A stretch of 64,000 bases of DNA from Hemerocallis citrina (Eukaryota; Streptophyta; Magnoliopsida; Asparagales; Asphodelaceae), in the NCBI GenBank assembly GCA_017893485.1, contig CM030368.1, forward strand, positions 176,882,504 to 176,946,503, in the 5' to 3' direction. Below the pieces are notes generated by a model, which was given only the letters and a program-made list of their open reading frames with translations, was not told the DNA's origin and did no database searches. Numbering within the stretch: the first letter of the stretch is position 1; each line of letters starts with the position of its first letter. Below, piece by piece: positions 7,091-49,178 of the stretch. Both the position numbers and the translations under genes were made by a program.

Positions 7091-7638
7091 ATAAGGCGAC
7101 CCGAAGTCTCGGGTTTGTGAAGAACCTGTTTCAGCGGCTGGTCGGTAAGAACGACCACCGAATGGGACTGAAAGTACGAGCAAAGCTTTCTCGCGGCCAT
7201 CACCAGGGCGTAGGCCATTTTCTCTATCTTCGGGTATCGGAGCTCGGCGTCCCGAAGCACTTTGCTGACATAGTAGATGGACTTCTGAGCCCGGTCTTCT
7301 TCCCTCACTAGGACTGCACTGAGGGTCTGCTCGGAGGCTGCCAGGTAGAGGTAGAGGGGTTCGCCAGGGATCGATTTGCTGAGGAGAGGGGGATTGACGA
7401 GGTAAGCCTTGAGCTGGTCGAAGGACTCCTGTTGTTGCTGCCCCCATTCGAATCCTTTAGCCCCCTTGCGGGCCTTGAAGAAGGGGAGGCATTTTTCCCC
7501 GGACTTTGAGAGAAAGTGCCCTATGGCGGCGAGGCGGCCTGTTAATCTCTGAACTTCTTTAACATTTCTAGGAGGGGCCATGTCCAATATGGCCTTGATT
7601 TTCTCCGGGTTTGCTTCAATTCCTCGCTGGCTAACCAT
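7057..7638 (-). pseudogene. pol middle of copy A: RT connection and first RNase H
   Basis: The segment starts in the RT thumb (GIEANPEKIKAILDM) and covers the first, retroviral-type RNase H. That domain reads LYLYLAAS where active enzymes have an aspartate, so it looks catalytically degenerate, as is common in Tat elements that use the second RNase H instead. VLTDQPLKQVLHKPE and the GRLMKWSIEL block are typical. The frame is lost after SIELS by loss of one base. In-frame TGA codons near 7753-7755 and 7659-7661 separate it from the RT frame upstream. Confidence 0.88.
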
Positions 7639-7755
7639 GAAGCCGAGGAACTTCCCTCATGAGACGCCGAACGCACACTTGTTCGGGTTGAGTCTCATAT
7701 TGTGCTTTCTCAAAACGTCAAACGCCTCTTGGAGGTCGGTCACATGATCAATGCC

Positions 7756-9882: not shown

Positions 9883-10952
9883 TCTCGAGCTGGGCCCTTA
9901 AGAGTTGCGTGGAAGGTTTTGCAGAGGAGGGCATCGGAAGCTTGATGGAGGAGCATCAAGGTCTTAAAGCTTTCGATGTGATCAACGGGGTCGATCTCCC
10001 CGGTGTAAGTCTCGAACTGGGGAGGTTTGAAGCCGAACGGCACAGGTGCATCCACTATGGTTCGGGAGAAAGGGGGTCGGCTAAGACGTAGGGTCCTCCC
10101 CCTAAGCTCCTCTTCTTGGTCTATCTGACCCAGGCGCCTCTCTACTTCATGAAGACGGCGGTACATGGTGTCATCCCTCCGACGGTAATCAGCCGAGCCT
10201 CTAGACTCGTCTTCGTACGAGGGAGAGTGAGGGCTACGGCGATGGTAACTTCGAGAGCGACGAGGACTTGGGGTACGCCGGGAGTTGCTAGGAGCAGGAC
10301 GAGGAGAGGGGGACCGTCGGCGAGGGCTTCGGACCGGGTGAGGAGATGGAACCTTCGGTGCGTTGGTGTTGGGACGGAGGTTGAGAGCTTGTAGGACGGT
10401 CGCTTGGAACTGCTGGAACTCGGCACGTGTGATGGGTGCCTCATTGTTCCTGGGCTGTTGCCGACCTGTAGGGGAGTATGGCCTTCTTCGGTAGTGCTCG
10501 GGGGATTCTTTCCGACCCCTTCGGTTAGGGGACCTTCTATACTCCTAGTGGCGAGGGTACCACTCGTCCGGACAGTGTTGGCGGGAGGTTCCCTCTCGGG
10601 CCCGCTTCTCATCCAGATGGCGGTGAAGGTCATCATCTTTCTGGCGGTTGAGGGCGGTATTATGGCGACCAGAGGCTCGGGGATGATGGGAGGCCATAGA
10701 GTCCGTAGAGGCGTTGTGGATGGAGACGTGTTCTTGGTGAAGAGGCTGTTTTTGAGGGTTAGGACCCTTTGGGGGTGGCTGATTTGGAGGAGGAAGGTCC
10801 TGTTGGAGCGGGTCTTCCGCTGGAGGAGGAAGTTGCCCCTGCTGTTGGGTTGGCTGGATGGGAACTTCTTGCTGCTGATCAGGGTTGGGTCCTCTGTTGG
10901 ACCCTCTTGATCTGACATTACTGGGAGGCATGGCTGGAGAAGATCTGTTCAC
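9870..10952 (-). pseudogene. gag N-terminus of copy A (one stop, 3' frameshift)
   Basis: The first ATG after the primer site is at 10952 (MNRSSPAMPP). The N-terminus is rich in Pro, Gln, Ser and Arg. A TAG at 10545-10547 interrupts the frame after EWYPRH, and the same frame then continues through an Arg/Ser-rich stretch into the gag domain (FKPPQFETYTGEIDP, FHATLKGPAREWYSRLAP). The frame shifts after that point. Gag forms the particle in the cytoplasm. The 10142-10918 ORF in another frame is a shadow. Confidence 0.82.
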
Positions 10953-12018: not shown

Positions 12019-14148
12019 CTATTGTTGTTGTTGTTCTTCCGGCGAGTTGCTCCCACTTGTGGACGTTGATAGTGCGTTCCCTTGTGTCCTATCTTCAGCC
12101 TTCAGCCAGTCTTCTGTGCAAACGAGCATCTCTAACAAGTCCGACTTCAAGCGATTCCTGTAATCAGTTAGAACCCTGCCACTTGAAGAAAATGCACTCT
12201 CAGAAGCAACTGTAAAGACAGGAGGAGTTAGTAAATCTTTATCCATAATTGACAGAATACTAAAAGTGTGTTCATGGTCCTTCCACCATTGTAAAATATC
12301 TAGTGGAGAAGTAGAAGGCTCAGAATCTTGTTGGTTATACCAATTTAATTCATTTGGTTGATTAGTCCTAGATTTTTTTGATTGAATTTGTTCAAGTAAA
12401 TTAAATGTTCTATCATCAAATTTACTTTTACCCTTACCTTTAGAAGTACCAGAAGAAGAACTAACTACAGAAGTTGTATTACTAGAAGCAAAACGTCTAT
12501 CATAATAATAATACAAGTTATTTAATGTAGATTCAAACTGAACTAAAAAAGTAGCGCAATCAATTACTAATTCTACATTTTTCCCAAGTAATGCAAAAAA
12601 TATTTCAATCAAACTCATCGTACCTTCTAATTTGATATGAGGATCCATAACGGTAGCAACACAAATCAACATAGGAGGAGAAAAATAATACTTCAAAAAA
12701 ATTTTGTATGTAGGTTTTACAATCTCACCAACATTGATATCATTTAACATTTCGTTAAATGTTTGCATCATGCTAACTAATAAAATAAAAATGCTACTAG
12801 AAGAGGATTCATATGTTTTTGAAAATTTTAAAGTTACGGTTTTAAAAGGTTCTAAAAATTTCAACAAAGATTCGGCAAAAAACCAATCAGTGGGAGTCAT
12901 TTCAAAATTGTGCATATTTTTTGCGATACAAAAATTATTTACAACTACTTTATATTCGGTAACAACATTTAGTAAATCAAAAGTAGAATTCCATCGGTGT
13001 CTAACATCCTTTGGAAATCTTCTAAAAGGTACATTTTTAAGCCTACACCAAGCTTTCCATTCTTGTAATATGCTTGGACTTAATGCAATGAAATGTACAC
13101 AATTTCTAATTTTAATTATATATCGATCGGCTATTTTTAATGCATCTTGAACACATAAATTTATAATATGACATGCACATCTAACATGAAAAATATTGTC
13201 AGATTGAGGGTTTAATACGGATTTTAAAGTAGTAATTACTACATTGTTGTTAGATGCATTATCAAAACTAATACACATAATTTTATCGCGAATATGAAAA
13301 ACATCACTAATTTCTATAATATGATTTACTATTTCAGCGCCACTATAGGGATACGGCAACGCCGCAAGTGATATGATTCTTTTTTGAAGAATCCAATCAT
13401 TGTCGATCCAATGACAGGTTATTCCCATCGTTGGAATATTGTTGACACTCGTCCAACAATCTGAAGTTAAACTAACTCTACAAGTTAAACTCCATAAAAT
13501 TGCAATCAAAGCGTCCTTCATTTCGATGTACATTTTAAAACAATCCGATTTGCAAGTATTTCTCGAAATTCTTCTAAAATGAGGGTTTAAGGCCATTTGG
13601 TTAAAATTTTCCAAGTTCCTACTCTCGGAATAGGAAAATGGTAACTCTTCCTTTATGACTAATCGAGCCATTTCCCGACGAACAAGATCGGGATCATAAG
13701 GGTGGCTATCAACTAGACCGGTCCTAGGGTTGATTTTTTGTTGGCCTTGTAGGTCAGCAAGAAGGTCTTTATGGTTATGTTGGATGTGTCTACTAATTGT
13801 ACCGGTGCCGTCACCCCTCTTGAATTTGTATGTTTTACCACATGTTTTACAAACTTTCAAAACTATACCCGGAGTATATTCGTCCGGGATATAATCGTAA
13901 AACTTATGCCAATCACTGGTTTCTCCTCTACTTTTCCTACTACTACGGGGTTGTGTGGTTTCAGTTGGTTGTTGTTGTTCTTCTTCTTCTAATTGTATGT
14001 CACCTACAACCTCGTCGTGTGTACCCCATTGTTGGGTAGAAGGATCATGGTATTCTTGGGCGGGCTCACTAGTTGGGACAATTGGTGGCCTACGGGAAGA
14101 GGAGGAGGAATCTTGCCCGCTACGACCGCTACCGCGTGATCTAGACAT
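12019..14148 (-). CDS. hAT-family transposase with BED zinc finger
   Basis: This 709-aa enzyme would cut and paste its own element in the nucleus. A Ser/Gln-rich N-terminus is followed by a BED zinc finger (C100, C103, H121, H126). Next is the RNase H-like core: first Asp in SLTSDCWTS, second in CISFDNASNN, the Cys/His pair in CACHIINLCVQDAL, and the Glu in TVASESAFSSSGR. The C-terminal hAT dimerisation block runs from about DILQWWKDHEH to TEDWL. The start ATG at 14148 (MSRSRGSG) precedes the BED domain by a typical distance. The frame is open end to end, and the length is close to RICESLEEPER/Ac-type proteins. The stretch before the Ser-rich linker looks short for the family, so a small in-frame deletion is possible. 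Confidence 0.92.
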   Translation of the reverse strand: MSRSRGSGRSGQDSSSSSRRPPIVPTSEPAQEYHDPSTQQWGTHDEVVGDIQLEEEEQQQPTETTQPRSSRKSRGETSDWHKFYDYIPDEYTPGIVLKVCKTCGKTYKFKRGDGTGTISRHIQHNHKDLLADLQGQQKINPRTGLVDSHPYDPDLVRREMARLVIKEELPFSYSESRNLENFNQMALNPHFRRISRNTCKSDCFKMYIEMKDALIAILWSLTCRVSLTSDCWTSVNNIPTMGITCHWIDNDWILQKRIISLAALPYPYSGAEIVNHIIEISDVFHIRDKIMCISFDNASNNNVVITTLKSVLNPQSDNIFHVRCACHIINLCVQDALKIADRYIIKIRNCVHFIALSPSILQEWKAWCRLKNVPFRRFPKDVRHRWNSTFDLLNVVTEYKVVVNNFCIAKNMHNFEMTPTDWFFAESLLKFLEPFKTVTLKFSKTYESSSSSIFILLVSMMQTFNEMLNDINVGEIVKPTYKIFLKYYFSPPMLICVATVMDPHIKLEGTMSLIEIFFALLGKNVELVIDCATFLVQFESTLNNLYYYYDRRFASSNTTSVVSSSSGTSKGKGKSKFDDRTFNLLEQIQSKKSRTNQPNELNWYNQQDSEPSTSPLDILQWWKDHEHTFSILSIMDKDLLTPPVFTVASESAFSSSGRVLTDYRNRLKSDLLEMLVCTEDWLKAEDRTQGNALSTSTSGSNSPEEQQQQ

Positions 14149-14622
14149 AATGTAGTAATGTACTAATGTATGTAAAAAAAATACACAATGTAGGAACGGT
14201 GAATTATAAAAAAAAATCTAAAAAACAAGAGAGTTGAGATAGAGAAGATCAAAAAATCGACAATAATTTTAACTACAACGCAAAAAAAAAATAACGAGAG
14301 AGGTATGAAATTTTGATACCGTTCACCGTGGAATACCCGAAAAAATAAGAATAGAAATAGAACTAGAAAGAAGCGCTTCGCCGATTCCGCAATTGAAGAG
14401 TTAAGGAGAGCTTGAAGGAGAATTGACGAGAGTTGAAGAGAGTTGAAGACGTTGAAGACGTTGAATTTTGATTTCGATACAATCGAAAATTGATCGTGTA
14501 TATGCCTTGTTGTAGACTTGCTTGTTGAATACTACAATTGTTGAAAAATTCCATAGAAATGATGTATAATAGTAAAGAGAGTAAGAGAGTAAGGTGTGAA
14601 TTTTTAATGGGATTTTGAGGGG

Positions 14623-21593: not shown

Positions 21594-24500
21594 TGTAACA
21601 CCCTGAATTCTATTTACATGTAATTCGTAGTACAACATGATCTTTTACTTCATTTCGTACAATTTTATAAGAAAATTAAAACTTTTGATTACACAACAAT
21701 GTTTATTACAGAGTTACACAGCAGAAATTAAATAAAATACAACATGAAATACAACTCTATTAACAGAAGCTTTAATCATGAATGTAATCTTTATCATCAC
21801 CCGTCTTTATGTCCTTGACAATCCAATCAAGCTCTGCACTGAAAATCTGTGGGCACGTCAGCTGCTTACAACTGACGCAATGTTATAAACAGCGATCCTC
21901 TCTATGCTGTATTATAACGAAATCTCTTATTTTAACAAACACAAACTTGAATGCATATAAAAGTGTAAAAAGTGACTATCCTAAACATGTCAGTGTATGA
22001 TATGATTTAATACCTAATGCAGATATTATACTACAAGGACACTAATGCATACTTGTTCGGATTCTATGCACCACATCCTATATAGGTCCGAGGGCAAGCA
22101 CCTACGTACTCTACATTAAAGGGTTTAACCCATCGCCGTGAATTACTACTACGGTGACTAGTGTATGTTTTAGATATTCTGTGAGTATCTAGTACCACCC
22201 TGATAATTATTGAGTATCGCACTCCCACTTCAAGTGATTTTGGACACACTGCCTCACACCCAGTAATTTTGGAGGCAAATACCCACACCGCGAGCTATGA
22301 CCCCGGTAATTCTTGAGAGTTGTTCTCCCATTGCGAGTGATTTACAGCCATCACGCCTCACACCTAGATAATTCTGGAGACGAAACCCACACCGCGCTGT
22401 CATCGGTACCTCATCACACAAACACCCCACGAGCGTCGCCTTGATCCCAGTAATTCTGGAGTAATCTCCCTCACCGCGAGCCTCAACCCCAGTAATTCTG
22501 GAGATACCTCCCACCGAGCTATCTAGGCCCTCATACTCATGTTTGTCCATACTTCATCACATCTCCCCTTAGTGCATGTCTTTAAGTTTTAGTTTTAAGT
22601 CATCATAACCTAGAGCTAGCTTACCCTACCGGACTTAAATCAACACGAGAGAAAGTCAGCCCAAACTGACTACTTCTTAAGAGATACTTAACCCACACTA
22701 GTTAGTTCTCAATTTCATTTATTTATAATGTCGGTTACTAGGGTATCGCCTAGCCTCTAGACTAACATCTTTCATGTTAAACAATTGGGGTACGCATACC
22801 CTTATAACTCATATTCTCAATTTCATGTATTCATATTTCCTTCAAATTCTTTCATTCATTTTTATTTATTCACCAATAAGAACAATCTCAAACTATTCAC
22901 TTTCACAGTACAGTTTTCATATTCATCAAAATCTCCTCAATATAAGTTAATAAAGATTCAAACATAATGTCTTAAAAATTCATGATTGGAAATTCATCAT
23001 ATCATTTTCCTTTGATTTTATCACAAATCAACTCTTAAATTTTATTTCATACACATTTGAATTTAAATCTAATCTAATTCAATAAACATGATTTTTATTT
23101 CTAAAAAAATGTTCTTAGAATATTGTTAAAATAATTCCCGTGTGTATAAAATATTCTATAACTTTTCTATGAATTTTTCCCAATTTTTTAACTTGTAAAA
23201 TCTCAAAAAAATAAAACAAAATAAAACCAGAAGGGAGGTCACCGGATTCGAACCCTGAACAAACAAAAACCCAAGAGTCGCCCAAACCAATGAGCCAAGT
23301 CTCAGTTGTGTTACATAGATGTTGGAGTTGTTTTGTACTCAAACTTATTCTCTGGATTTTTTTAAATTTAAATAAAAGAGCCAAACCTCTAGACTCGAAC
23401 CCGCGACCAAGAATCCCCCCCCCTCGACGTGACACGTGGTGACGCCACACGCGCGCGCTAGCCAACAAGGCCACCGCCAGTTTCTGATATAGGATGTGTT
23501 TAATTTTTTATATTTTCATGCTCTGTTTTAATCTCGATTTTCAACTTTCAAACGAATTTTGCTTTCTAATCTTCTCTCCAAAATAATATTATAAAAAATA
23601 CATTTCTTAACTCCCATAATTATTTCTTACTGATTTTAATCATATTGGTATAAAATTAATCAAACTATTCTGAAATCTAGTATTCATATTTTTCAATTAG
23701 AAGAAATTCCACTATTATAATGAAAGTATATATTCTTTGTTACAGCAAAAACTATCTCAATTTGACTTTTATAATTTCTGTTAATACTTTCACAATTTCT
23801 TGCACACAAATTACAGGTTTGTTTACACATATGCACAAATCAAATGATTTAATCATGGCATGACATTTGTATATAACCATTTCAACATACTAATGAAATA
23901 AACTTTTAATTCGACAACTTCGTTATATCATGATAAATTTTCTTTTAGCATGCAACGACTTCCATATTGCAATTCTACCAAATGTTCTAAAATAGCAACA
24001 TCACATGCATCACAAAAATCAACTAAAACTCAATAAATTTTCTACACATGTATACTACATAATTTAGAAAGTTCAAGAAACCGCCCACCCATATGAGGAA
24101 TAAATAAATCCCTAGCTATGATCTCCAAGAAAGCCTCCAATTCCCTTCCCAAAATCCGTGCACCAAAGAAGAAAAATCCCCTCTAAGCATTTCGGCAGCA
24201 AAACAGCAGATACACATTTTTTTATTTTTTATTTATTCTTTATGCTGATGTAGGCTGGGGGGTGGGGGTTAGTTTTATAAAGGATGATTAATTACTTAAT
24301 TAAATGTAGGATAATTAACCCACTAACTACAAATTAATCACCACGAATAAAAATCCACTACAAACTCTTCCTCTTCCTCTTCTATGAACAGCCGGCCAAC
24401 CTTCACATTCCCACATGTGCACTTTTGTGCACGTGCACTCTATGTGCACACACTCACACAATTTATAATTTATTTTTATTGAATAAAAATGAGTATTCTA

Positions 24501-25028
24501 CATAACAAGTTGTGTAGGCTTCATTAAAAAAAAATTGTGGGCTTTAAAAGCAATTTTGGGCACATGGTGTTTTTTATAATAAATAATACTAAGTGTAATA
24601 AATAAAGTGAGAAGAAAATGTACATTACTCCTTAAAAAATTTTAGAGACAACCATACATATAAAATTTTACGTGCAATGCACGTGCAAAATTATTAAAAT
24701 TAATTTGAGAGAACGAAAAACATTCAAAATACAAAACATGTATGTTTAATATTTTCACAGATATTCCACGTAACGGAAAATATACGTAATCGACACATGT
24801 ATTGAAAGCACGTAGAATATACGTAAAAACACAAAGATTAAAATAAAATGTTTGAGTTGGCCCGAAATGAGTTTTGAGAAGACGGAAAATGTATAAATTT
24901 TCGGAATATAAAATACATATGACATTTATATAAAAATACGTTACTAATATTATTCGTAACGGTACAAAATATACGTGCGTAACACACGATGGCAAAATTG
25001 TCATTACTCCATTTTGCGGGGTGCTACA
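21594..25028 (-). repeat. 3' LTR of the LARD-like element
   Basis: TGTAACACCCTGAATTC to GCGGGGTGCTACA. It includes degenerate ~60-bp repeats with TAATTCTGGAG (22190-22510) and two tRNA-like segments (see 23228-23480). Confidence 0.88.
23228..23480 (-). repeat. Two tRNA-like (SINE-like) segments inside the LTR
   Basis: On the minus strand GGTTCGAATCC (23244-23254) is a perfect Pol III B-box, with an A-box-like TGGCTCATTGG 32 bases upstream (23287-23297). A second pair is GGTTCGAGTC (23392-23401) with TGGCCTTGTTGG (23462-23473). The same pair sits in the other LTR at 28842-28852 and about 29031, and a related pair is at 40919 and 41091. Confidence 0.6.
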
Positions 25029-27252
25029 CTCTCCCCCTTAGAACAGTTCTTTCCTCAAAACTTACTAGGGTGAAAGTTGTATTTCGTACACACCAAAAAA
25101 ATATCATTATTGTACTCAGAAAACTGCAACTATTAAGAAAATAAATGTGGTATAAAAATGTGTAATATGGAAAAACACGGTAAACTTAGATAAGAAAACT
25201 ATGAGTATCAAAAATTTATAAGAACGAACAAGAAAATCTAGAAAAATAGCTTAAGAAAAGAAATGTGACCATAAAAGATAGGATGGATTGAGAGAAAATT
25301 TCATTAAAATAATATTAGGTAAAGTATTAGATGAAAATAAAAAATATAAATTAAGTCATTAATTGTGAAAGAGTTTGGAAAACAAAGCAATTGGAAAGAT
25401 TAAAGAGAAACATAGTCGATAGATAAATTATGAATAGGCTTGGTAATCAAAATTTTATCAAAGTAATAAGCGGTAAAATGATTAAAATCGCAAACTGAAC
25501 TAGTACCATATAGTACGAGATAAAAATTGAATTAGAAATTTAAGAGAAGACTATTGGGTAAAAGTTTTGAAAAATATACGAGCATGAAATTTAGTTAAAA
25601 GTATCGACGATATAAAATAATTCTGTAAACAAGTTAATATCATAAAATAATTGTAAAGTAAATACAATAATTATATATATACGATTTTAAAGATATAGAA
25701 TACTAGTTGGTATATATCAAAATACTTTCAAGTAGAGCAAGAAAACCAGCATACAAAATTATATATGAACATAGGCGCAAAAATTATAGGGTGAAACAAA
25801 CAGTATTATGATATGAAAATTATAAATGGGTTGTAGAAGTAAAACAAGATATCATAGTAGAAAAGTAATATCATACTATTGAAACAATACAAAAAACTAA
25901 TTATATAGAAATAAATTAGGAATCGTAAACAAAAGTATAAATAATAAGATAATTAATTTAATTTTAAGTTGTAAAATATTATAAAATAGTATAAACTAGT
26001 ACAAAATGGATTAGTGGTAAGTAACTATTATAGAAAACAAAGTAGGGGTTATCAAAGTAGAAAATTTTCTTCTGTTGTAGGTTCGCCTTGTTGGTGTCCA
26101 ACTGCAGGCTTGTCTCCTCGACCTCAAGTTGCAGAATTGCCTCTACGACATCCGTTTGAAGTTTGTCTTCTGTACTTTTGGTCGCAGACTTTGCCTCCCC
26201 GACGTCCAGTTACAATTTGTCTCCAATGATGTCTAGTTGCAGATTTTCCCTCTCGACATCAGGTTGCACCAAAACAGAAGATGGGAAGATGTAATCTTCC
26301 ATATGTGCTTGGATATTGGGTGTTTAATAAAGTATGAAAATAGAAGTTACATTTTTAAAATTGGTGATATAAAAATAAAAGTTGAGATAATAAGAGTAGA
26401 AAATTACAAAGATAAAATATTCAAATAAAAGAATAGATTTTAAATATTGAATATAAGCTATATCACAAAAATAGTAGGAAAATGATTTATAATGTGTGGA
26501 AGTATGTCATAACTATATAAATAAAACATTACAATCTTGTAAGGAAAAATATATACTGAAATGAATAAGACGATGTAAAATAGTGGAAAATTATAGTATC
26601 GTGAAATCAAAATAAAGTGAATGTAAACATACAATATTAAAATTCACAATCTAATAGAATTTGTAACAAGAAAAATGATAGTCTTAATAATAATTATTTA
26701 AGTAATAATTCAAAACCTAATAGAATACGTAAAAAAAGTAATAGCGAAAATATAAAAGCACATAAAAGAAACATCAAAAAAGAAAACGAGTAAGTCAAAC
26801 TTAAAAGATTAATAAGATGTAAGGTTGTAAATAAAGCAATAAATATCAAATTAAATTACTAGTACAAGAAAATAATTATGTGAAAAATATTAAATGTTAA
26901 AGGAGAAAAGTACTGTGAGAAAAACTACACGAAGAAATTGGTAAAAATGAATGTAGGTTCAAACCCACCACACTTCTGCTGCGCCACTCTCCAAGGAAAA
27001 ACATGCTCGCATACAATATCACATCAATTGTATACGAGGGGAGTATCTTGAATGCAAGTTTCATAACTTCATCATTCATGACTCCAGCCATTCAATAGGG
27101 AAAGGGAGGAGAAGACATCAATGTATAGAGCAACGCAAATGTAAATCACTTACATTTAAATCTCTATAAGCTGAACTCACACTCTAATATCCACCCTAAT
27201 GTGTTGTCCTTGTAATTTTGTACTACTTATTGAAGTTTTCTCAGATACCACT
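25029..27252 (-). other. Non-coding internal region of the LARD-like element
   Basis: It is AT-rich with no ORF resembling gag or pol. On the minus strand the polypurine tract TAAGGGGGAGAG abuts the left LTR (25029-25040). The primer site TGGTATCTGAG lies two bases from the right LTR (about 27240-27250), one base different from the initiator-Met type TGGTATCAGAG. A GC-richer patch at 26080-26280 holds degenerate ~45-bp repeats (GACATCCGTTTGAAG, GATGTCTAGTTGCAG). Confidence 0.8.
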
Positions 27253-30200
27253 TGTAACACCCCGAATTCTATTTACATGTAATTCGTAGTACAACATGAT
27301 CTTTTACTTCATTTCGTATAATTTTACAAGAAAATTAAAACTTTTTATTACACAACAATGTTCATTACAGAGTTACACAGCGGAAGTTAAATAAAATACA
27401 TCATGAAATACAACTCTAATAACAGAAGATTTAATCATGAATGTAATCTTTATCATCAATCGTATTTAAGTCCATGCCAATCCAATCAAGCCCTGTACTG
27501 AAAATCTGTGGGCGCGTCAATTGCTTACAACCGACACAATGTTATAAACAGCGATCCTTTCTATGCTGTATTATAACGAAATCCCTTACGTTAGCATACA
27601 CAAATTTGAATGCATATACAAGTATAAAGAGTGACTATCCTAAACATGTCAGTGTATGATATGACTTGATACCTAATGCAGATGTTATACTACAATGACA
27701 CTAATGCATACTTGTTCGGATTCTATGCACCCCATCGTACAAAGGTCGCACCTACGTACTCCACATTAAAGGGTTTAATCCCTCGCTGTGAATCACTACT
27801 ACAGTGACTAGTGTATGTTATAGATATTCTATGAGTATCTAGTACCACCTCGATAATATTCTTGAGTATCGCACTCCCACTTCAAGTGATTTTGGACACA
27901 CTGCCTCACACCCAGTAATTCTGAAGGCGAATACCTATACCGCGAGCTATGACCCCGATAATTCTTGAGATTCGTTCTCCCATTGCGAGTGATTTACAGC
28001 CATCACGCCTTACACCCCGATAATTCTGGAGACGAAACCCACACCACATTGTTATCGGTATCTCATCACACAAACACCCCACGAGCGTCTCCATGATCCC
28101 AGTAATTCTGGAGTAATATCCCCCACCGCGAGCCTCAACCCCGATAATTCTGGAGATACCTCCCACGGCGCTATCTAGGCCCTCATACTCATGTTTGCCC
28201 ATACTTCATCACATCTCCCCTTAGTGCATGTCCTTAAGTTTTAGTTTTAAGTCATCATAACCTAGAGCTAGCTTACCCTACCGGACTTAAATCAACACGA
28301 GAGAAAGTTAACCCTACCAGATTTATAATGCCGGTTACTAGGGTCACGCCTAGCCTCTAGACTAACATATTTCATGTTCAACAATTGGGGTACACATACC
28401 TTTATAACTCATATTCTCAATTTCATATATTCATATTTCCTTCAAATTCTTTCATTCATTTTTATTTATTCATCAATAAGAACAACCTCAAACTATTCTT
28501 TTTCACAGTACACTTCCATATTCATCCAAACCTCCTCAATACAAGTTAATAAAGATTCAAACATAATGTCTTAAAAATTCATCGTTGAAAATTCATCTTA
28601 TCATTTTCCTTTGATTTTATCACAAATCAACTCTTAAATTTTATTTCATATACATTTGAATTTAAATCTCATCTAATTCAATAAACATGATCTTTATTTC
28701 TAAAAAAATGTTCTTAGAATATTGTTAAAATAATTCCCAAGAGGTATAAAAATACTCTATAATTTTTCTAAGAATTTTTCCTAATTTTTAAACTTGTAAA
28801 ATCTCACCCAAAAAAAAAAAAAAACCAAAAGGGAGGTCACCGGATTCGAACCCTGAACCAACAAAAACCCAAGAATCGCCCAAACCAATGAGCCAAGTCT
28901 CAGTTGTGTTACATAGATGTTGGAGTTGTTTTGTACTCAAACTCATTCTCTGTTTTTTTTAAAAAAATGAAAGAGTTGTACTCAAACTCATTCTCTGTTT
29001 TTTTTTTAAATGAAAGAGCCAAACCTCTGGACTTGAACCTGCAACCGAGAACCCCCCCTCGACGTGATACGTGGAGACGCCATACGCGCACACTAGCCAA
29101 CAAGGCCAAGACGCCATACGCGCACACTAGCCAACAAGGCCACAACCAGTTTCCGATATAGGATGTGTTTAATTCTTTATATTTTCATGCTCTGTTTTAA
29201 TCTCGATTTTCAACTTTCAAACAGATTTTGCTTTCTAATCTTCTCTCCAAAATAATATTATAAAAAATACATTTCCTAACTCCCACAATTATTTCTTTAC
29301 TGATTTTAATCATATTGGTATAAAATTAATCACAAATAATTATTTTGAAATCTAGTATTCATATTTTTCAATTAGAAGAAATTCCACTATTATCATAAAG
29401 GTATATATTCTTCGTTATAGCAAAAATCATCTCAATTTGACTTTTATAATTTCTCTTAATACTTTCACAATTTTTTGCACACAAATTACAAGTCTGTTTA
29501 CACATATGCACAAATCAAATGATCTAATCATTGCATGACATTTGTATATAACTATTTCAACATACTAATGAAATAAACTTTTAATTCGACAACTTCATTA
29601 TATCATGGTAAATTTTCTTTTAGCATGCAACAAATTTCATATTTCAATTCTACAAAATGTTCTAATATAGCAACATCGCATGCATCACAAACATCAACTA
29701 AAACTCAATAAATTTCCTACACATGTATACTACATAATTTAGAAAGTTCACACTTACCCATATGAGGAAAAATAAATCCCTAGCAATAAGCTCCAAGAAA
29801 GCCTCAAATCCCCTTCCCGAAATCCGTGCACCAAAGAAGGAAAATCCCCTCCAAGCATTTCGACAGCAACACAGCACATACACATTTTTTTATTTTGGAT
29901 TTATTCTTTATGCTGATGTAGGTTCGGGGGTGGGGGTTAGTTTTATGAAGGTTGATTAATTAATTAATTAAATGTAGGTTAATTAACCCAATAACTATAA
30001 ATTAATCACCACTAATAAAAACCGACTACAAACTCTTCCTCTTCCTCTTCTATGAACAACTGACCAACCTTCTCATTCCCACATGTGCACTTTTGTGCAC
30101 GTGCACTCTACGTGTACACACTCACACAATTTATTATTTATTTTTATTGAATAAAAATGAGTATTCTACATGACAATTTAGTTGTATATGCTTCATTTTA

Positions 30201-30702
30201 AAAAATAATTGTGGGCTTTAAAAGCAATTTTGGGCGCATGGTTTTTTTTTATAAAATAAATAATACTAAGTGTAATAAATAAAGTGAGAAGAAAATGTAC
30301 ATTACTCCTTAAAAAATTTTAGAGACAACCATACATATAAAATTTTAAGTGCAATGCTCATGCAAAATTATTAAAATTAATTTGAGAGCGAAAAACAGTC
30401 AAATTACAAAACATGTATATTTAATATTGTCACGGATATTCCACGTAACGGAAAATATGCGTAATCGACACATGTATTGAAAGCACGTACAATATACGTA
30501 AAAACACAGAGATTAAAATAAAATATTTGAGGTGGCGCAAAATGAGTTTTGAGAAGACGGAAAATATACAAATAATCGGAATATAAAATATATATGAAAT
30601 TTATATAAAAATACGTTACAAATATTATTCGTAACGTACAAAATACATGTGTGCAACACACGATAACAAAATTGTCATTACTCAATTTTGCGAGGTGTTA
30701 CA
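27253..30702 (-). repeat. 5' LTR of the LARD-like element
   Basis: TGTAACACCCCGAATTC to GCGAGGTGTTACA. It is collinear with the left LTR. The two tRNA-like segments recur at about 28840-28930 and 29025-29145, the second partly duplicated (ACGCCATACGCGCACACTAG twice). Confidence 0.88.
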
Positions 30703-35640: not shown

Positions 35641-37424
35641 GAAGGCAGTGATACAAATAACTTATTAACGGCTTCACAGAGTGGATCCTTTTCCCTTAGA
35701 AGGCAGGGGTTCTTTCTCTGTGGCCATGGCATCCAGCTCGGTCGCCCGCTACAGGTCCTCTACATTCACAGTGAAGGCAAAGCCATCAATCTTGAGTCAT
35801 GGATACTTAATCTTCACATGCGTAAGGGTCGTCTCGTACCCCGCATCTTCGACATCGAGCACTTGCAGCATGGTCTCGTCCAATTCCTTCTTGTCCTTAC
35901 TCGCCCGCTGAGCCACCTCATCCAGCTCGCCTCGTAGTCTCTTCTCTTCGACTACCCCTGCCCCGGGCTCGGACAATTTATACAATTTATAAGACAAATT
36001 AGATACTATGTAGTACAACTGCTCACCACAGGCTGCCTCTCAAAAGGTGGTTAACCGAATTGGTGACTCTTGATCCTTGGCAATTATATTTATACTATAT
36101 TTTTATTCAATGAAACCATCGATATGGTACTAAACCATACCCAAATCCCCTTTTTCATATCATACCCGTACACACACATGCATGAAAGAAGCCGTGGGCC
36201 CCTTCCATCATGTGCCACGTCATCTCCATACAAGAACACAGCACATGAGTGCTGTTCTTCTCCTTCAAGAACCGGTGGGTCCCCCCACCTTTCACAAACC
36301 GGATTTAAAATGAATCCTTTTTCATTTCAAATCCATACATTTATATATAAATCCTCCCTATAGAAATCTCTATAGGCAATTTCCAATTCAATATATTTTT
36401 CAAATCATACATATATATTTCAGAAATACGGGGTATTACACACACCCCCCTTCAGAAATCAGCGTCCTCGCTGATGAGCACGGGACATGCACAATCTAGT
36501 GCAGGATCTACTTTCTAGCCGATGTAGAGCATTTCTGTGAGCGTCACTCTCGTCTTTGGAATTCTGGAGACCAATCCCACTCTGTGGATCATTTTGTGGA
36601 TCTCTGTCCATCGTCCCAGACTTCTGGGGATTGTCTGTCTCACTCCGCCGATCATCCTGGAGTCCATAACTCACTGCTCTCATACACTCGGTGTCGAAAG
36701 TCGGCTTTGATACCATTTGTAACACCCCTGCCCCGGGCTCGGACAATTTATACAATTTATAAGACAAATTAGATACTATGTAGTACAACTGCCCACCACA
36801 GGCTGCCTCTCAAAAGGTGGTTAACCGAATTGGTGACTCTTGATCCTTGGCAATTATATTTATACTATATTTTTATTCAATGAAACCATCGATATGGTAC
36901 TAAACCATACCCAAATCCCCTTTTTCATATCATACCCGTGCACACACATGCATGAAAGAAGCCGTGGGCCCCTTCCATCACGTGCCACGTCATCTCCATA
37001 CAAGAACACAGCACATGAGTGCTGTTCTTCTCCTTCAAGAACCGGTGGGTCCCCCCACCTTTCACAAACCGGATTTAGAATGAATCCTTTTTCATTTCAA
37101 ATCCATACATTTATATATAAATCCTTCCTATAGAAATCTCTATAGGCAATTTCCAATTCAATATATTTTTCAAATTATATATATATATTTCAGAAATACG
37201 GGGTATTACATACCATGCTAGCCGCTCTTCGGACCATCGCTCCTTCTTGGCCAGCAACTCCTGCCGAGCCTTTTTCTCCCCCTCTAACCCATTCTCAAAA
37301 TTCTTAACAGCCCGCCAAAGCTCCTGATTACGGTGCACCAATCCCCTACAGTTCCTTTCGGACTCCTGGGCCTGTTGAGCATCGCGCCGAGTCTTCGCTT
37401 TAGCTTAGCCCCAGTGACAGTAGC
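35641..37424 (-). pseudogene. Antisense unit 2 of copy C, exon 3 (coiled coil), split by a TRIM
   Basis: The minus-strand pieces 37424-37211 (ELLAKKERWSEERLAW) and 35947-35641 (EEKRLRGELDEVAQRASKDKKELDE, GYETTLTHVKIKYP) form the coiled-coil exon; the latter half matches the ALDHV/VVKRV region of the other copies. The intron before it is well preserved: 37425-37495 on the minus strand runs from GTAAGG to TTTTTGTAG. The frame across the TRIM joint does not match exactly, and a stop interrupts the C-terminus. Confidence 0.72.
35948..37210 (-). mobile_element. TRIM-like element 1
   Basis: The LTRs are about 35953-36440 and 36718-37210 (493 bp) around a 277-bp internal region. The minus-strand primer site is TGGTATCAAAGCCGAC (36700-36715) and the polypurine tract GAAGGGGGGTGTG abuts the left LTR. 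The left LTR lacks its TGTAACA terminus (TCGACTAC instead), so the target duplication (TACCA expected from the right side) cannot be confirmed. Confidence 0.85.
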
Positions 37425-39060: not shown

Positions 39061-40114
39061 TGTAACGCCCCGCACTCAGTCCGTACGCACACAATTAATT
39101 AAATTCTAGCCACGCCCACCACAGGCACCATCAAAAGGTGGGTATACCCGTTAGGTACCTTTATCACTTGGTTTTCCTATTATATCTTTACACCTACCAT
39201 ATGTTACCATCGATATGGGATTATATTCCCAAGGGTCAACCCGGTTCACTTCTACACCACACACACACACTTCCTTTTTATTCCATCTTTCATTCATTCA
39301 TTCATTAATTCCTTCATGGTCAACTAGTCAACCTATCCATTCTTTTTCCAAATCCATCCATCCATTCCGTAAGCCACGTCACCACTCCCATCCATCCATT
39401 CTGATTAGTATATATATATACACTATATACTATATATACTATCCATATAGTATACTATATACTATTATGCGGAAATACGGGGTCTCACATTCACCCCCTC
39501 TTAAGAATTCAGCGTCCTCGCTGAATACGGGACGTGCAATCTAGTACAGGATCGCCTTTCTAGTCGAATGTAGATTTGTCTCCTAATCGCTGCCCACACA
39601 GGGTCTTACGCATCTCATACACATATCACTCACTTCCTATATACAAATCCTACATTCGATGTCGAAAGTTGGCTCTGATACCATCTGTAACGCCCCGCAC
39701 TCAGTCCGTACGCACACAATTAATTAAATTCTAGCCACGCCCACCACAGGCACCATCAAAAGGTGGGTATACCCGTTAGGTACCTTTATCACTTGGTTTT
39801 CCTATTATATCTTTACACCTACCATATGTTACCATCGATATGGGATTATATTCCCAAGGGTCAACCCGGTTCACTTCTACACCACACACACACACTTCCT
39901 TTTTATTCCATCTTTCATTCATTCATTCATTAATTCCTTCATGGTCAACTAGTCAACCCATCCATTCTTTTTCCAAATCCATCCATCCATTCCTTAAGCC
40001 ACGTCACCACTCCCATCCATCCATTCTGATTAGTATATATATATACACTATATACTATATATACTATCCATATAGTATACTATATACTATTATGCGGAAA
40101 TACGGGGTCTCACA
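39061..40114 (-). mobile_element. TRIM-like element 2 (youngest of the family)
   Basis: Two 429-bp LTRs (39061-39489 and 39686-40114) differ at about two bases. The internal region is 196 bp. The target duplication TTAGA is perfect (39056-39060 and 40115-40119). On the minus strand TGGTATCAGAGCCAAC, an initiator-Met-type primer site, lies two bases from the right LTR, and TTAAGAGGGGGTGAA abuts the left LTR. There is no ORF of its own; the ~92-109-aa frames across the LTRs are simple-sequence artefacts. Confidence 0.95.
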
Positions 40115-40333
40115 TTAGATATTCTTATATTCACTTATTCACAAAGTAATCTTAGTCTTGTCACTATCCATGATCTATTCATCCATTCACATTCTTTATA
40201 AGCAAAAGAATAATTTCTTTTAAGAACACAATTTCATCACATGAAATTTCATAATAAATCCAAGCCATTATAATGTCTCACTTCACTTTAGAATATTCTT
40301 CGAACAAATAAGAGTAAACTTCTCTTCAAGAAA

Positions 40334-44361: not shown

Positions 44362-45292
44362 TGATGTGTCTAAATTTTATACAAATATTTGTACGCATTT
44401 ACCCATTAAAATCGCTTGTTTTCGTCTATCTTGTGTTTAATTCGTCTTATTTCCATAAGATTTCAAGTAATTAATTATTTTTGAAGGAATGAGATTTTTG
44501 ATGCAAAAAGTGAAGATTTTTGGAAAAAATCAACAAACAAAGCAAAACTATTGATTTATTATTTTTAATGATTTGTTAAATTTTATATTTTACAAATTGA
44601 CAATACAAGGAGCAAAATACAATTTTAATTGTTAATAGGGTGTAAAAAGAATAAACAAATTTGGAAGGATTTAGATAGAGCTAAAATAAAAATTAATTAC
44701 TTTAAGTTGATCTAAATAATTTAAATTTAAATTTTTATTTTTAAATTCTAAATTTTTATTTTATTTGTATTTGCAAGACGTGTTTCAAATAAATAAAGAT
44801 GAAGGGTTCTTTCTGCAAAAAAAAACCCTAATTCTGCAAGAGCAAACAAATAGAAAAAGGAGGAGACGAGAAGGCTACTTTAAAAAAATAAAAAATATCT
44901 CTACTACTATAATGGGAGAACCCCTTTGATGCACTCGATTTCGCATCGCCATTAAAGAACTCAAATAGAACTCAAGAACGGTGAATTAGAGCGGGAACGA
45001 AAAAGAAGAGAGCTTGGGTTTGAGAGAAAAGCTCCAAGATGGAAGGAGAAGAAGAATCAAGAACAAGAAGAAGATAACAGAGAGAGGAGAAGAGATAGAA
45101 AGGATTTCCCAATTATTCAGACATAGCTCATAACTGAGCTGCCTACTTGTATTTATAATGTTTCATTACACGTGCTTGACATGTACATTTACTCTTTTAC
45201 ACATCAGTCCCTATACTTCCATTTATTTACTTCCCTAACCATTCGGGTGTGTATCAATTCCTCCCCCCTTCAATAAGACCTTGCCTCAAGGT

Positions 45293-47500
45293 CTAACGAG
45301 GAAAGTACTTGAAAGTATAGGTGATCAACCAGGAACCTGACCAGTTCACTAGAGTCACTAAGCTTCCTGCAGTTCCTTTGATATTGATAGGGAATATCTC
45401 TGACATCATTACCCATGGAACCGCTCCCATTCCAATTGAGAATGATCCTATGTACACTAGGATACCCGAAAGAGCAAGTGCAGGAACCCATTCCATATAA
45501 ATTGCTTGACCCTTCAAATAGAATGATATCCCTGTCAAAAAACAACCTACAAATGTTTCTGATGCCGAAACCATTAGAAGAGGCTTCCTTCCGCTCGCAC
45601 CCACTATTGTTAAGGGTACCTGTATAGTGCCCATTAAAATGTTTCCAAGGTCTCCTGAAGCAAATCCTACAGACACAAAGGTTTCGCTTGCATAGAAGCA
45701 GATAGCGTTGATCCCTCCAAGTTGTTGAAATACCATTAACCCAACTCCCACCAATACAGCTATCCTTTCAGGAGTAAAAGGAAATGCACGCCATCCATAT
45801 CTATTGATGAGCTCGACACCATCGGTGCAAACAAGTTTTCCATCGGGGTCGAGAATGATTAAGGAAGGAATGCCTTCAATCTGATCCTCATCTGAAGAAA
45901 CAAAGACGACTTCGAATTTGGAACCCTTATCCTTCAACTGATGGTAGACAGAGGCTAATACAGGAGTGAAGCTCTCACATTTAGAATACCAATTTGCACC
46001 AAAGTACAACCCAATTGTATTTCCTTCAGTCTCCTTAACACTGACCAATTCTCCATTTTCTATGACAACTGAAATGGGTTGTGCTTCCTTGGAGATCTGC
46101 ATCTCAGTGAAGAAGGCAATGACTTCATTCAGTTTTCCCCAGTGTGCATTAGAGAGAGCATTTTCTTGTTCCCGCACCAGTGCTCCTCCATAAACACTGC
46201 AGGCAGTTAATCCCACTGCCCTACCATAAAACTCAAAGTCTGCATGTACCTGTTTTGCAAGCTCCCTAGTAGATAGAAGTACCAACACTGTAGGACTTCT
46301 TCCATGACCTGTCTTCCTTGAATCTTTGAAAGGTCCATGTGTTAGAGACTCTAATAACGGCAACACAAATGCCAATGTTTTACCCTGACCGGTGCGAGCT
46401 CGCCCAACCAAATCAAACCCATCAAAAACCAACTGATCATCATGTACTAAAGAACAACACACTAAGCTTCTCAGCTTCGGGTACCAACTTCCTCCTGGAT
46501 CAAAAATGAAGAACATTGCAAGAAAATAGAGCTTTGCAAAGATGAAGTGTCCACCAATTGAATTGATTTGTTCAACCATATACAATCCCAACCTCTTCTT
46601 TGGAACATCAGGACCAAAGTTCGTCTTCATCAGTGAATGATTTGGTGATTTTTCTCGATGAGAAGATGAGTGATTCAATGACCCCTTATCACCAGCAACG
46701 CTACTTTCAACATCAACTTTATTTTGAAACTCATGAGTTGTGACCGAATTCTCTTCCTTTTCTTGTTCTTGCATTTCATCAAACACACTAGACGTCTTCT
46801 CACCATTATAATCTTCAACATACTCTATACAAATGAAGTATAGTGGTGCCAAACCCAATTTAAATCTTCCGCTAGAGAAACAACTAGGACACAAATCACA
46901 ATCGAATACCTTGTTGCTCTTGTATCGTTTATAGAAACAATCAGCGAGACAAACATTACACTCATACTCCTCAAAATTTACCGTACCATAGAGTTCAAAA
47001 TTTCTTCCACTAACCATCTGATCTCTACTCTTTTGATAAGAACCCAATTTTGGTTCCATAGAAAATCGATCAAGATCAAGGTTGGGAATTTGCTTACCAA
47101 AAAATTTGACTGGCGAAATCTCCTCTGATGGTTCTTGATTAGACCTGAACTCCCCCATTCGTTGAGTCAACAGCTGCAACTGCGTCAATATCAAAGGAAT
47201 TTGGGAGACTTGCGAAGCCATTTCCTTCAACTGATTCTCCATACTAACTACTCGATCATTCAAGAACTGATAGCTTCGCTGCCACTCCAGATCTGGAGCA
47301 AAACCAAGGATTCCATCATCAACTGGATCTTGAGGGCCTTCTTCTTCACCCGCAGCCAGAGAATCGATCGGATCTTGAGGCCCTTCTTCTTCACCCGCAG
47401 CCAGAGAATCGATCGGATCTTGAGGCCCTTCTTCTTCACCCGCAGCCAGAGAATCGATCGGCTCTGATACCAATTGATGCACTCGATTTCGCATCGCCAT
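45293..47500 (-). CDS. Chimeric ORF: gag-like N-terminus + SWI3-like + DEAD-box helicase + nucleoredoxin + ERD6-like transporter pieces
   Basis: This is a 735-codon frame from ATG 47500 (inside the 5' LTR) to TAG 45293. Residues 7-14 are encoded across the primer site. A 15-aa repeat (PIDSLAAGEEEGPQD) occurs three times at 14-58, followed by a gag-like coiled segment (~70-115). Residues ~175-215 form a ZZ-type zinc segment (CNVC..CDLCPSCF) as in SWI3 proteins. Residues ~357-445 match a plant DEAD-box helicase with the P-loop ARTGQGKT and STRELAKQV but stop before DEAD. Residues ~452-579 are a nucleoredoxin module in which the WCPPC site reads WYSKC. Residues ~581-735 are an ERD6-like sugar transporter half (GRKPLL, PWVMMSEIFP, KGTAGSLVTLVNW) with membrane segments. 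No introns remain. No part looks catalytically complete; a cellular role is unknown. Confidence 0.9.
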   Translation of the reverse strand: MAMRNRVHQLVSEPIDSLAAGEEEGPQDPIDSLAAGEEEGPQDPIDSLAAGEEEGPQDPVDDGILGFAPDLEWQRSYQFLNDRVVSMENQLKEMASQVSQIPLILTQLQLLTQRMGEFRSNQEPSEEISPVKFFGKQIPNLDLDRFSMEPKLGSYQKSRDQMVSGRNFELYGTVNFEEYECNVCLADCFYKRYKSNKVFDCDLCPSCFSSGRFKLGLAPLYFICIEYVEDYNGEKTSSVFDEMQEQEKEENSVTTHEFQNKVDVESSVAGDKGSLNHSSSHREKSPNHSLMKTNFGPDVPKKRLGLYMVEQINSIGGHFIFAKLYFLAMFFIFDPGGSWYPKLRSLVCCSLVHDDQLVFDGFDLVGRARTGQGKTLAFVLPLLESLTHGPFKDSRKTGHGRSPTVLVLLSTRELAKQVHADFEFYGRAVGLTACSVYGGALVREQENALSNAHWGKLNEVIAFFTEMQISKEAQPISVVIENGELVSVKETEGNTIGLYFGANWYSKCESFTPVLASVYHQLKDKGSKFEVVFVSSDEDQIEGIPSLIILDPDGKLVCTDGVELINRYGWRAFPFTPERIAVLVGVGLMVFQQLGGINAICFYASETFVSVGFASGDLGNILMGTIQVPLTIVGASGRKPLLMVSASETFVGCFLTGISFYLKGQAIYMEWVPALALSGILVYIGSFSIGMGAVPWVMMSEIFPINIKGTAGSLVTLVNWSGSWLITYTFKYFPR

Positions 47501-47695
47501 TAAAGAACTCAAATAGAACTCAAGAACGGTGAATTAGAGAGGGAACGAAAAAGAAGAGAGCTTGGGTTTGAGAGAAAAGCTCCAAGATGGAAGGAGAAGA
47601 AGAATCAAGAACAAGAAGAAGATAACAGAGAGAGGAGAAGAGATAGAAAGGATTTCCCAATTATTCAGACATAGCTCATAACTGAGCTGCCTACT

Positions 47696-47706
47696 TGTAT
47701 TTATAA
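47696..47706 (-). promoter_or_regulatory. TATA box in the 5' LTR of the chimeric retrotransposon
   Basis: The minus strand reads CATTATAAATACAAG. It lies about 200 bases upstream of the ATG at 47500 and would start transcription within the LTR. Confidence 0.6.
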
Positions 47707-49178
47707 TGTTTCATTACACGTGCTTGACATGTACATTTACTCTTTTACACATCAGTCCCTATACTTCCATTTATTTACTTCCCTAACCATTCGGGTGTGT
47801 ATCACCCTTAGTCCTTAATCCAATCCGTGCAACGCACGTGTTGGGTAATGGACTAATTTTGGTAAATATTTTCGAAGGTGGGCCAGTTTGGTAAATATTT
47901 TCGAAAGTGGATCAGTTTGGCAATTATTTTCTTTTTACCCTTTTCATTATCCTTCAATTTTTCCACGTGCACAGCACGTGTATGATACTAGTATATATAA
48001 ATAAATAACGAAACAGAGAGAGAGACAGAGTCTGTCCCCTCTATTGCGTGAATTGCGTGAAGAACGAAAAGAAAAGGTGGCTCGTGGTTCAAGGAAGAAG
48101 GGAGAGAGAAAAGGGCAGGCGTGAGTGCGTTCTTGCTGTTGGCTGTGCACTTCGAAACAGAAGACGCACAGGAGCCTGCTGACCTGGCACAGAAAACGAC
48201 AGGGACACGTGTGCAGGTGGCTCAGACTCGACGTGACAGACGCGACAGCTCCGCTGACGTGGCGGATCGATCTGACGTGGCGGGTGACGTGGCTTGGCTC
48301 GGTTTTCGAGACAGAAACGGAAAAGAAGAAGAGACAGAAAAGGGTTACTGTTCAGCACAGTTTTCGAGACTTCGTTTGCAGATTTTTTTAATTTTTTTTT
48401 TTTCTCTCTCTCTAATTTTTATTATGCAATCCAAAATAATTTTTGTTAATTGTAAATTTATTATGAACTAAATTTATTTTTCTAGAACTTTGATGTAGCA
48501 TAGTTTTAAAAACACAAATTTTAATTCCTTATTATTTTTCTATTTTTTCATGGTTGTGTATTTAATTTTTGTGCTTAATGCTTACAATTATTTGGCCAAT
48601 TTTTTGTATGATTATTGGATCATGGAGAGACCAAGAGGTAATTTGTGATTTAGAACAATAAAAATTGAACACCATTGATTGAGCGAAATTAGAGATAATT
48701 TACCGCGATTGATGTGACCGTTAAGAAATCCATAGAACTTAATGAGTTTTCGAATAATTAAATTTGCATAGAGATATGACAAACTGTTAGTTGGAGATAT
48801 TTTTGGTGTTGTTCGAGAGAAAGCATTGAATAATTTGGAGATTTTGGTCTACAACTTGGAAAAATAATATTTTTATTCTTATGGAATTATAAATTGTGTG
48901 GGATTAACTAGGTGAAGTCAAAAGCCCTAAAATTAATTTTGCCATTAACAAATTACAAAAATTTCACATCCCGCTCCCTCTTAATTAATTTAGTTGGTTA
49001 TCTTTAGATTAATTTAATTTAGTAGCTTTCTTTATTAATTTCGATCTTCCAAATAGTGATTTATCTAGTAATATCAGTACTCAATAAAATAATTAGTCCC
49101 TGTGGGTTCAACACTCTATTCACTTAACTATACTACTTGTTGCGATTTTGTACACTTGCAAATAATCACATCATCGAG

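Follow-up and report, generated by a model that had tools for sequence, protein, structure and literature searches.

We analysed a 64,000-nt stretch of the Hemerocallis citrina genome (assembly GCA_017893485.1, contig CM030368.1), called the window here, and found that a long terminal repeat (LTR) retrotransposon at positions 44927–47804 carries pieces of host genes in one open frame of 735 codons. All coordinates are window positions, and the sense strand of the element is the minus strand, on which all of its parts described below are read. With a probability of roughly 85%, this element is a young member of a non-autonomous LTR family that repeatedly captures spliced host mRNAs by template switching. 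This view is supported by the anatomy of the element, by the RNA-level origin of its cargo, by serial capture and exchange between copies, by host domains in sense orientation and by an excess of domains in the native frame.

The element and its spliced cargo

The element was identified by sequence, repeat and LTR comparison and is 2878 bp long. Its 5′ LTR (47475–47804) and 3′ LTR (44927–45256) are 330 bp each, have TG..CA ends and differ by one mismatch with zero gaps. The target site duplication CCCTT is present on both sides (47805–47809 and 44922–44926). The 5′ LTR is followed by the primer binding site (PBS) TTGGTATCAGAGC (47461–47473), an exact match of 13 nt, which we take to be of the initiator-methionine tRNA type; a search of the whole window with at most one mismatch gave three matches, compared to 0.05 expected by chance. 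The polypurine tract (PPT), in sense GAAGGGGGGAGGAAT, abuts the 3′ LTR (45257–45272). These marks, which had all been named in the original prediction, were borne out and are those of an LTR retrotransposon. The prediction that pol is missing also held: no gag, reverse transcriptase (RT), RNase H or integrase model matched the open reading frame (ORF) in Pfam up to E = 1, and for this reason we call the element non-autonomous. Rfam returned nothing at gathering scores, and the element has no match elsewhere within the window. A length of 2878 bp and a frame of 735 codons set it apart from terminal-repeat retrotransposons in miniature (TRIMs), which have up to about 1.5 kb and no coding capacity. 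Direct LTRs, the lack of an inverted repeat of at least 30 nt and the absence of introns separate it from Pack-MULEs and Helitrons, Helitron ends not having been searched for.

The 735-codon frame (45293–47500) stays fully open from its ATG onwards and ends at a stop that precedes the 3′ LTR. One continuous frame had been predicted for the interior of the element; the continuity stands, while its description needs correction, since the frame already opens within the 5′ LTR, where its ATG is located, and then crosses the PBS, which encodes the residues LVSE. In the 5′ LTR, TATAAATA is found at LTR position 100 and the ATG at LTR position 305, about 200 bp past the TATA-like box. Above the curated cut-offs, Pfam detected ZZ (codons 177–213), DEAD (codons 359–453, corresponding to the first part of the helicase domain), Thioredoxin_8 (codons 493–540) and Sugar_tr (codons 578–732). 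The leader (codons 1–125; 47126–47500) consists of the LTR-encoded start, the PBS-encoded LVSE and a coiled-coil-like stretch, and three 45-bp acidic repeats are located in it (47318–47465). The ZZ zinc finger (46862–46972) belongs to a block that is present in 14 of 17 LTR-bounded elements of the family, and is therefore an old part and not a fresh capture. Further downstream are a DEAD-box helicase segment (46154–46432), a segment of unassigned origin (46044–46148) that is 97% shared with the relatives L048 and L049, a nucleoredoxin segment (45750–46046) and an ERD6-like sugar transporter segment (45296–45749), the last recognised by Pfam as well as by protein search. The helicase, nucleoredoxin and ERD6-like identities agree with those proposed originally. 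A SWI3-like part had also been proposed; two word-limited protein searches of that region found nothing, and the ZZ finger alone is supported there.

To find the parents of the cargo, 1188 bases were compared with all 701 contigs of the assembly (3.78 Gb). This search returned a sibling element on contig 1 (L009) and two parents, so that parent genes could be located for the helicase (C285) and the nucleoredoxin segment (C7:278158091–278158480). Besides the helicase parent itself, C5 holds a locus nearly identical to it and C4 one that is more distant. The helicase segment comprises parts of three parental exons and differs from the spliced parent at 5 of 279 positions, and the two parental introns, GTATTG..ATACAG (682 bp) and GTAAAC..TTACAG (100 bp), both of the GT-AG type, are precisely absent. 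This alignment demonstrates that the helicase segment was captured from spliced mRNA. The original prediction had inferred such an origin from the uninterrupted ERD6-like segment; it was established for the helicase segment and is echoed by the relative L017 described below. The nucleoredoxin segment differs from a single stretch of C7 at 4 of 297 positions. It begins at an apparent 3′ splice site of the parent, and an in-frame deletion at a TCAG microhomology or repeat has removed 93 nt from its interior. For the ERD6-like segment, the best protein relative by identity was ERD6-like 16 of Iris pallida (82%), compared to which the segment is 5 aa shorter, in frame; this relative would place the host among monocots close to the irises. 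Intronless pieces of at least two host genes, with two parents on different contigs, are thus combined in one hybrid ORF, as is typical for elements of the Bs1 type.

The interior of the sibling L009 is 99.46% identical to that of the window element, and a 1-base deletion splits its frame. With a grass substitution rate of 1.3 × 10⁻⁸ per site per year, the single difference in 330 LTR positions suggests that the window element inserted within roughly the last 0.1 million years. The cargo differs from its parents by 1.3–1.8%, and was presumably captured before this insertion and then moved along with the element.

L017 carries three host genes in one element. Its stop-to-stop frame of 831 codons contains, in order and in sense, parts of an acetyl-CoA synthetase gene (2 exons; the gene is named by ACAS_N), of an exportin-5 gene on C2 (8 parental exons that span 15 kb, with 1016 of 1021 letters identical) and, from C10, of 2 exons of a third gene. 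The exons are 98–100% identical to the parents, and 9 introns are gone, with GT-AG at 8 of the 9 intra-gene joints. The three host genes have therefore been carried almost unchanged since capture. Taken over both elements, five host genes are known as parents; 11 introns of four of them are absent, 10 at GT-AG joints, and the captured copies of these intron-bearing parents are 96–100% identical to the exons.

A 182-nt piece of exportin-5 that lacks its intron and stops at the exon end seen in L017 was also found at ten places of the assembly with 87–91% identity (C666:665958, C9:182120432, C4:169697719, C1:254356092, C1:398310592, C1:122880126, C10:161229757, C8:119879183, C123:103590 and C2:414041525). 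It is probably an older capture that was copied repeatedly.

A family with exchanged cargo

Where the original prediction treated one element, a search with the LTR revealed a family with differing cargo. The LTR search gave 271 candidates, 40 of which were scored. The analysis covered 36 loci with family LTR or core sequence, made up of 17 LTR-bounded elements (the window element included), nine further loci (L015, L017, L034–L038, L048 and L049) and ten others; L010 and L014, for which the LTR alone was seen, were excluded. All copies except L048 and L049, which were found via their cargo, were retrieved by DNA similarity of the LTR or core and not by their frame. The 17 LTR-bounded elements have sizes of 1.5–6.0 kb, and in 12 of them an ATG frame on the sense strand reaches 450 codons or more (maximum 866). 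Among the antisense ATG frames listed for them (the best four per element), the longest has 119 codons.

The Pfam scan covered one or more sense frames in 32 of the 36 loci, with L009, L035, L056, L057 and the antisense frames outside it. A host domain other than ZZ was detected at E ≤ 0.01 in all of these loci except L034 and L058 (30/32). When overlapping models of one kind are taken once, 27 domain families besides ZZ exceed the curated Pfam cut-off across the family: Sugar_tr, DEAD, Thioredoxin_8, ANF_receptor, Glyco_hydro_1 (GH1), DUF608, Hexapep (LpxD by NCBIfam), E1-E2_ATPase with Hydrolase, Wtap, Mlo, Gln-synt_C, Peptidase_S10, Ribul_P_3_epim, Cpn60, SecA_SW, Exportin-5, ACAS_N, JmjC, PPR, Iso_dh, BFN, Cyclin, LpxB, H_PPase, BCD1, WD40 and RabGAP-TBC. 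Matches below the cut-off (UCH, Snf7, HSCB_C, PIG-X) were left uncounted. Splicing of introns inside the element was considered as a reason for shorter cores and rejected: the extra SecA-coding sequence of L037 and L038, absent from the window element, does not have GT-AG ends, which points to deletion.

An all-against-all comparison of the 17 interiors revealed cassettes that are common to copies in varying combinations, and no antisense matches among them. L016 is a mosaic that first resembles L011 and then L019, with 12 identical nt at the switch; at an internal join of L022, a stretch was skipped at a 9-nt repeat. An automatic list contained 25 distinct switch points (31 before merging), and 11 of these have microhomology of at least 5 nt, while random breakpoints have a mean of 0.74 nt. 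The shared mosaics and the switch points are consistent with template switching by RT, although the joints alone are no proof.

These observations fit a cycle in which the family would retain both of its ends, a short leader made of an LTR-encoded start codon, a coiled coil and in most cases a ZZ finger, and a short PPT-bearing 3′ end, while the middle would be repeatedly replaced or extended by pieces of spliced host mRNA. RT would be provided in trans by a putative autonomous helper, and inside the particle it may switch among templates that include the RNA of the element, host mRNA and the RNAs of other elements.

Reading frame and selection

In at least one copy, 21 of the 27 domain families are in frame with the leader or ZZ, compared to 9 expected (P = 2.9 × 10⁻⁶ against 1/3), and 18 of 27 are in frame with the leader itself (P = 4.1 × 10⁻⁴). 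The unit of this count is the domain and not the join, a single in-frame copy counts as yes, and the stops that separate segments in L015, L026 and L036 were regarded as products of later decay. Two of the 18 (the P-type ATPase in L016 and the cyclin in L048) depend on weaker matches to the same gene in that frame, and the chaperonin call in L028 depends on NCBIfam. Unassigned internal sequence amounts to 46 nt in the window element and to just 0–790 nt across the 19 copies examined, so that few out-of-frame pieces can hide. Most simply, the bias may arise because an early stop followed by a long untranslated tail leads to destruction of the RNA by nonsense-mediated decay, or because such an RNA fails to yield a leader protein that helps the element. 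The outcome would be a partial loss of out-of-frame products.

For leader codons 1–125, dN/dS between the window element and its relatives was 0.26 for L011 (P = 7 × 10⁻⁵), 0.22 for L016 (P = 5 × 10⁻⁷) and 0.27 for L017 (P = 5 × 10⁻⁶); the value for L018 (0.43) was not significant. By these ratios the leader is under purifying selection and seems functional for the element over longer times. The ZZ finger had values of 0.29–0.31 versus L015, L021 and L028, and of 0.78, 1.73, 0.62 and 1.28 versus L018, L011, L036 and L038, these being based on few changes. In the cargo, values of 0.58–1.28 were obtained for the glutamine-synthetase/MLO part, the ATPase-LpxD part and the epimerase-carboxypeptidase part, 0.42–0.58 for SecA and 0.36 (P = 0.12) for the receptor-domain stretch compared between L016 and L011, none of them significant.

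We also considered the leader as a Gag remnant. A profile comparison with one Gag-like sequence gave a probability of 7.9%, and homology is not supported by it. On the minus strand, L015:3–704 resembles the N-terminus of another element's Gag, and its LVSE runs through a PBS-like sequence in the same layout as in the family leader; this piece has no Pfam match.

Alternative explanations and related systems

A single frame with several domains could also come from a true multi-domain host gene, or from one domesticated gene, that an LTR element had taken up whole. We regard this as highly improbable and reject a single multi-domain gene: no protein covers more than 27% of the ORF among the 120 of 976 protein matches listed, the helicase and nucleoredoxin parents are on separate contigs, and other copies hold other combinations of cargo. 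The family LTR is absent from the four parental loci checked (L041, L042, L043, L045), and so neither of the outcomes that would have spoken against the original prediction, one gene matching the whole or the same fusion outside an LTR element, was encountered. Similarly slight is the chance that the cargo was captured as DNA, as in Pack-MULEs and Helitrons, and lost its introns later. Such capture is common in plants according to the excerpted text of PMC13317346, but the 11 missing introns, 10 of them at GT-AG joints, refute it for the four intron-bearing parent genes, and copies that are 96–100% identical to exons leave little time for a separate loss of introns. Serial insertion of LINE-made retrogenes or processed pseudogenes into an LTR element would likewise yield intronless cargo. 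It is nevertheless improbable, as the cargo is collinear, shows no antisense matches between copies, is mostly joined in frame and has been exchanged between copies at matching bases, and as pieces with known parents end inside genes and not at a 3′ end; A-tails and inner target duplications were not systematically looked for.

The frame bias may have arisen without selection, by switching between translated mRNAs in random frames, with an excess that comes from shared descent and from counting one in-frame copy as sufficient. In favour of this are the relatedness of the copies by descent, the cargo without significant constraint, the strict count of 18 of 27 with its two weaker members, and the existence of frameshifted copies. 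Against it stand the retrieval of nearly all copies independently of frame, the little room left for out-of-frame pieces, and the 18 or 21 of 27 families versus 9 expected. We consider an origin without selection possible, though not the favoured explanation. Equally tentative is the view that the family is a standing gene-fusion machine, with the constrained leader as a selfish core and host mRNA pieces as stuffing, in which fusions with an open frame transpose better. Here, translation to near the 3′ end would protect the RNA from decay, or the leader protein would act on its own RNA.

Several observations weigh against repeated capture of spliced mRNA with a frame filter, or limit it. The antisense frames were outside the Pfam scan, and the sense orientation is thus deduced from how long the sense frames are, and from the parents. 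Parents are known for two elements only, and neither DNA nor protein search of the assembly revealed a close parental exon for the ERD6-like segment. In L017, the joint at query position 461 misfits GT-AG: an AG acceptor is present, whereas the stretch read lacks a GT donor. The edges of two segments, the nucleoredoxin start (L041 position 1501) and the exportin-5 end (L075 position 571), fall on apparent parental splice sites, which simple template switching alone does not predict. At 13 of the 25 switch points microhomology is at most 2 nt, and some of the longer microhomologies belong to PBS or LTR sequence that is shared. Six of the 27 domain families (GH1, BFN, LpxB, BCD1, WD40 and RabGAP-TBC) are out of frame with the leader or ZZ. 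Three copies (L026, L028 and L037) have the PBS-encoded LVSE, and thus the LTR start, in a different frame from ZZ, so that the epimerase, carboxypeptidase and chaperonin match the ZZ frame and not the LTR start; one frameshift appears to be common to L053 and L056. Taken together, these off-frame copies indicate that an unbroken frame is not strictly required and that the filter is leaky. With regard to selection, the constraint on the leader could date from an ancestral gag, and dN/dS over the whole frame of the window element versus L009 is 0.34 (P = 0.07). The cargo shows no significant constraint, its range of 0.36–1.28 being of low power and too imprecise to show neutrality.

Capture of host genes by LTR elements has precedents in excerpts of the comparison literature (PMC13317346, PMC4717578, PMC2774510, PMC3726574 and PMC7264820). 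Bs1 of maize is an LTR element with segments of three host genes, the chimeric gene of which is transcribed and translated (PMC13317346); it contains exons only (PMC4717578) and has a low copy number (PMC2774510). The Hemerocallis family resembles Bs1 in its intronless host segments within an LTR element, a resemblance of mechanism only. Unlike Bs1, for which the excerpts describe one cargo set, it has many copies with different, swapped sets and 27 domain families. In soybean, the TRIM GmaRetroS15 is small, contains a captured piece without introns and combines three genes in one element, and the 30 elements of 7 subfamilies described there have 1,172–1,449 bp (PMC4717578). In contrast, the 17 LTR-bounded Hemerocallis elements have 1.5–6.0 kb, with frames of up to 866 codons. 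Host fragments between LTRs are also described for LTR retrotransposons of maize, rice and sorghum (PMC2774510, PMC3726574). As far as the excerpted maize survey goes, and under its conditions, it had no element that combined fragments from two or more standard nuclear genes, unlike the Hemerocallis family (PMC2774510). Given Bs1 and GmaRetroS15, the kind of event is known, and the family-wide, multi-gene and frame-biased form appears to be new; titles and the beginnings of abstracts, a weak test of absence, revealed no comparable plant family.

Acutely transforming retroviruses are defective, encode Gag-host fusions in which a leader is joined to spliced host sequence, and need a helper. The Hemerocallis family is like them in working principle only, its need for a helper being putative. 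It differs in being a plant element with several host genes in a row, and its leader is not linked to Gag by the single profile comparison given above.

Other repeats are present in the window. At about 39061–40120, two direct repeats 625 bp apart are 100% identical over at least 300 nt; the repeats start with TGTAACGCCCC, and a PBS-like ATGGTATCAGAGC is located at 39672–39684 (minus strand). By its sequence this looks like a young TRIM that is unrelated in sequence to the family. A close direct-repeat pair at 35954–37023 (770 bp apart, 99%) is possibly a second small LTR element. Retrotransposon gag, RT, RNase H and integrase pieces and a hAT transposase-like frame lie on the minus strand at 5498–9897 and 12022–14217, and a direct repeat about 3 kb long, with a spacing of 5.6–5.7 kb and 91–93% identity, at 21594–30636.

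In the literature excerpts, gene capture by plant LTR elements appears either as a lone fragment with a copy number of one or a few, or as a single multi-gene element. In the family described here, 30 of 32 scanned loci hold host pieces, some of them 99–100% identical to living parents with the introns removed, and exon shuffling is caught in the act. The family makes the origin of chimeric genes measurable with regard to rate, joint sequences, frame filter and fate of the products. As a warning, the annotation of such genomes may hold false chimeric genes. If the tentative view of a standing gene-fusion machine were true, the genome would hold a frame-filtered library of exon-shuffled proteins, a plant counterpart of Gag-oncogene transduction.

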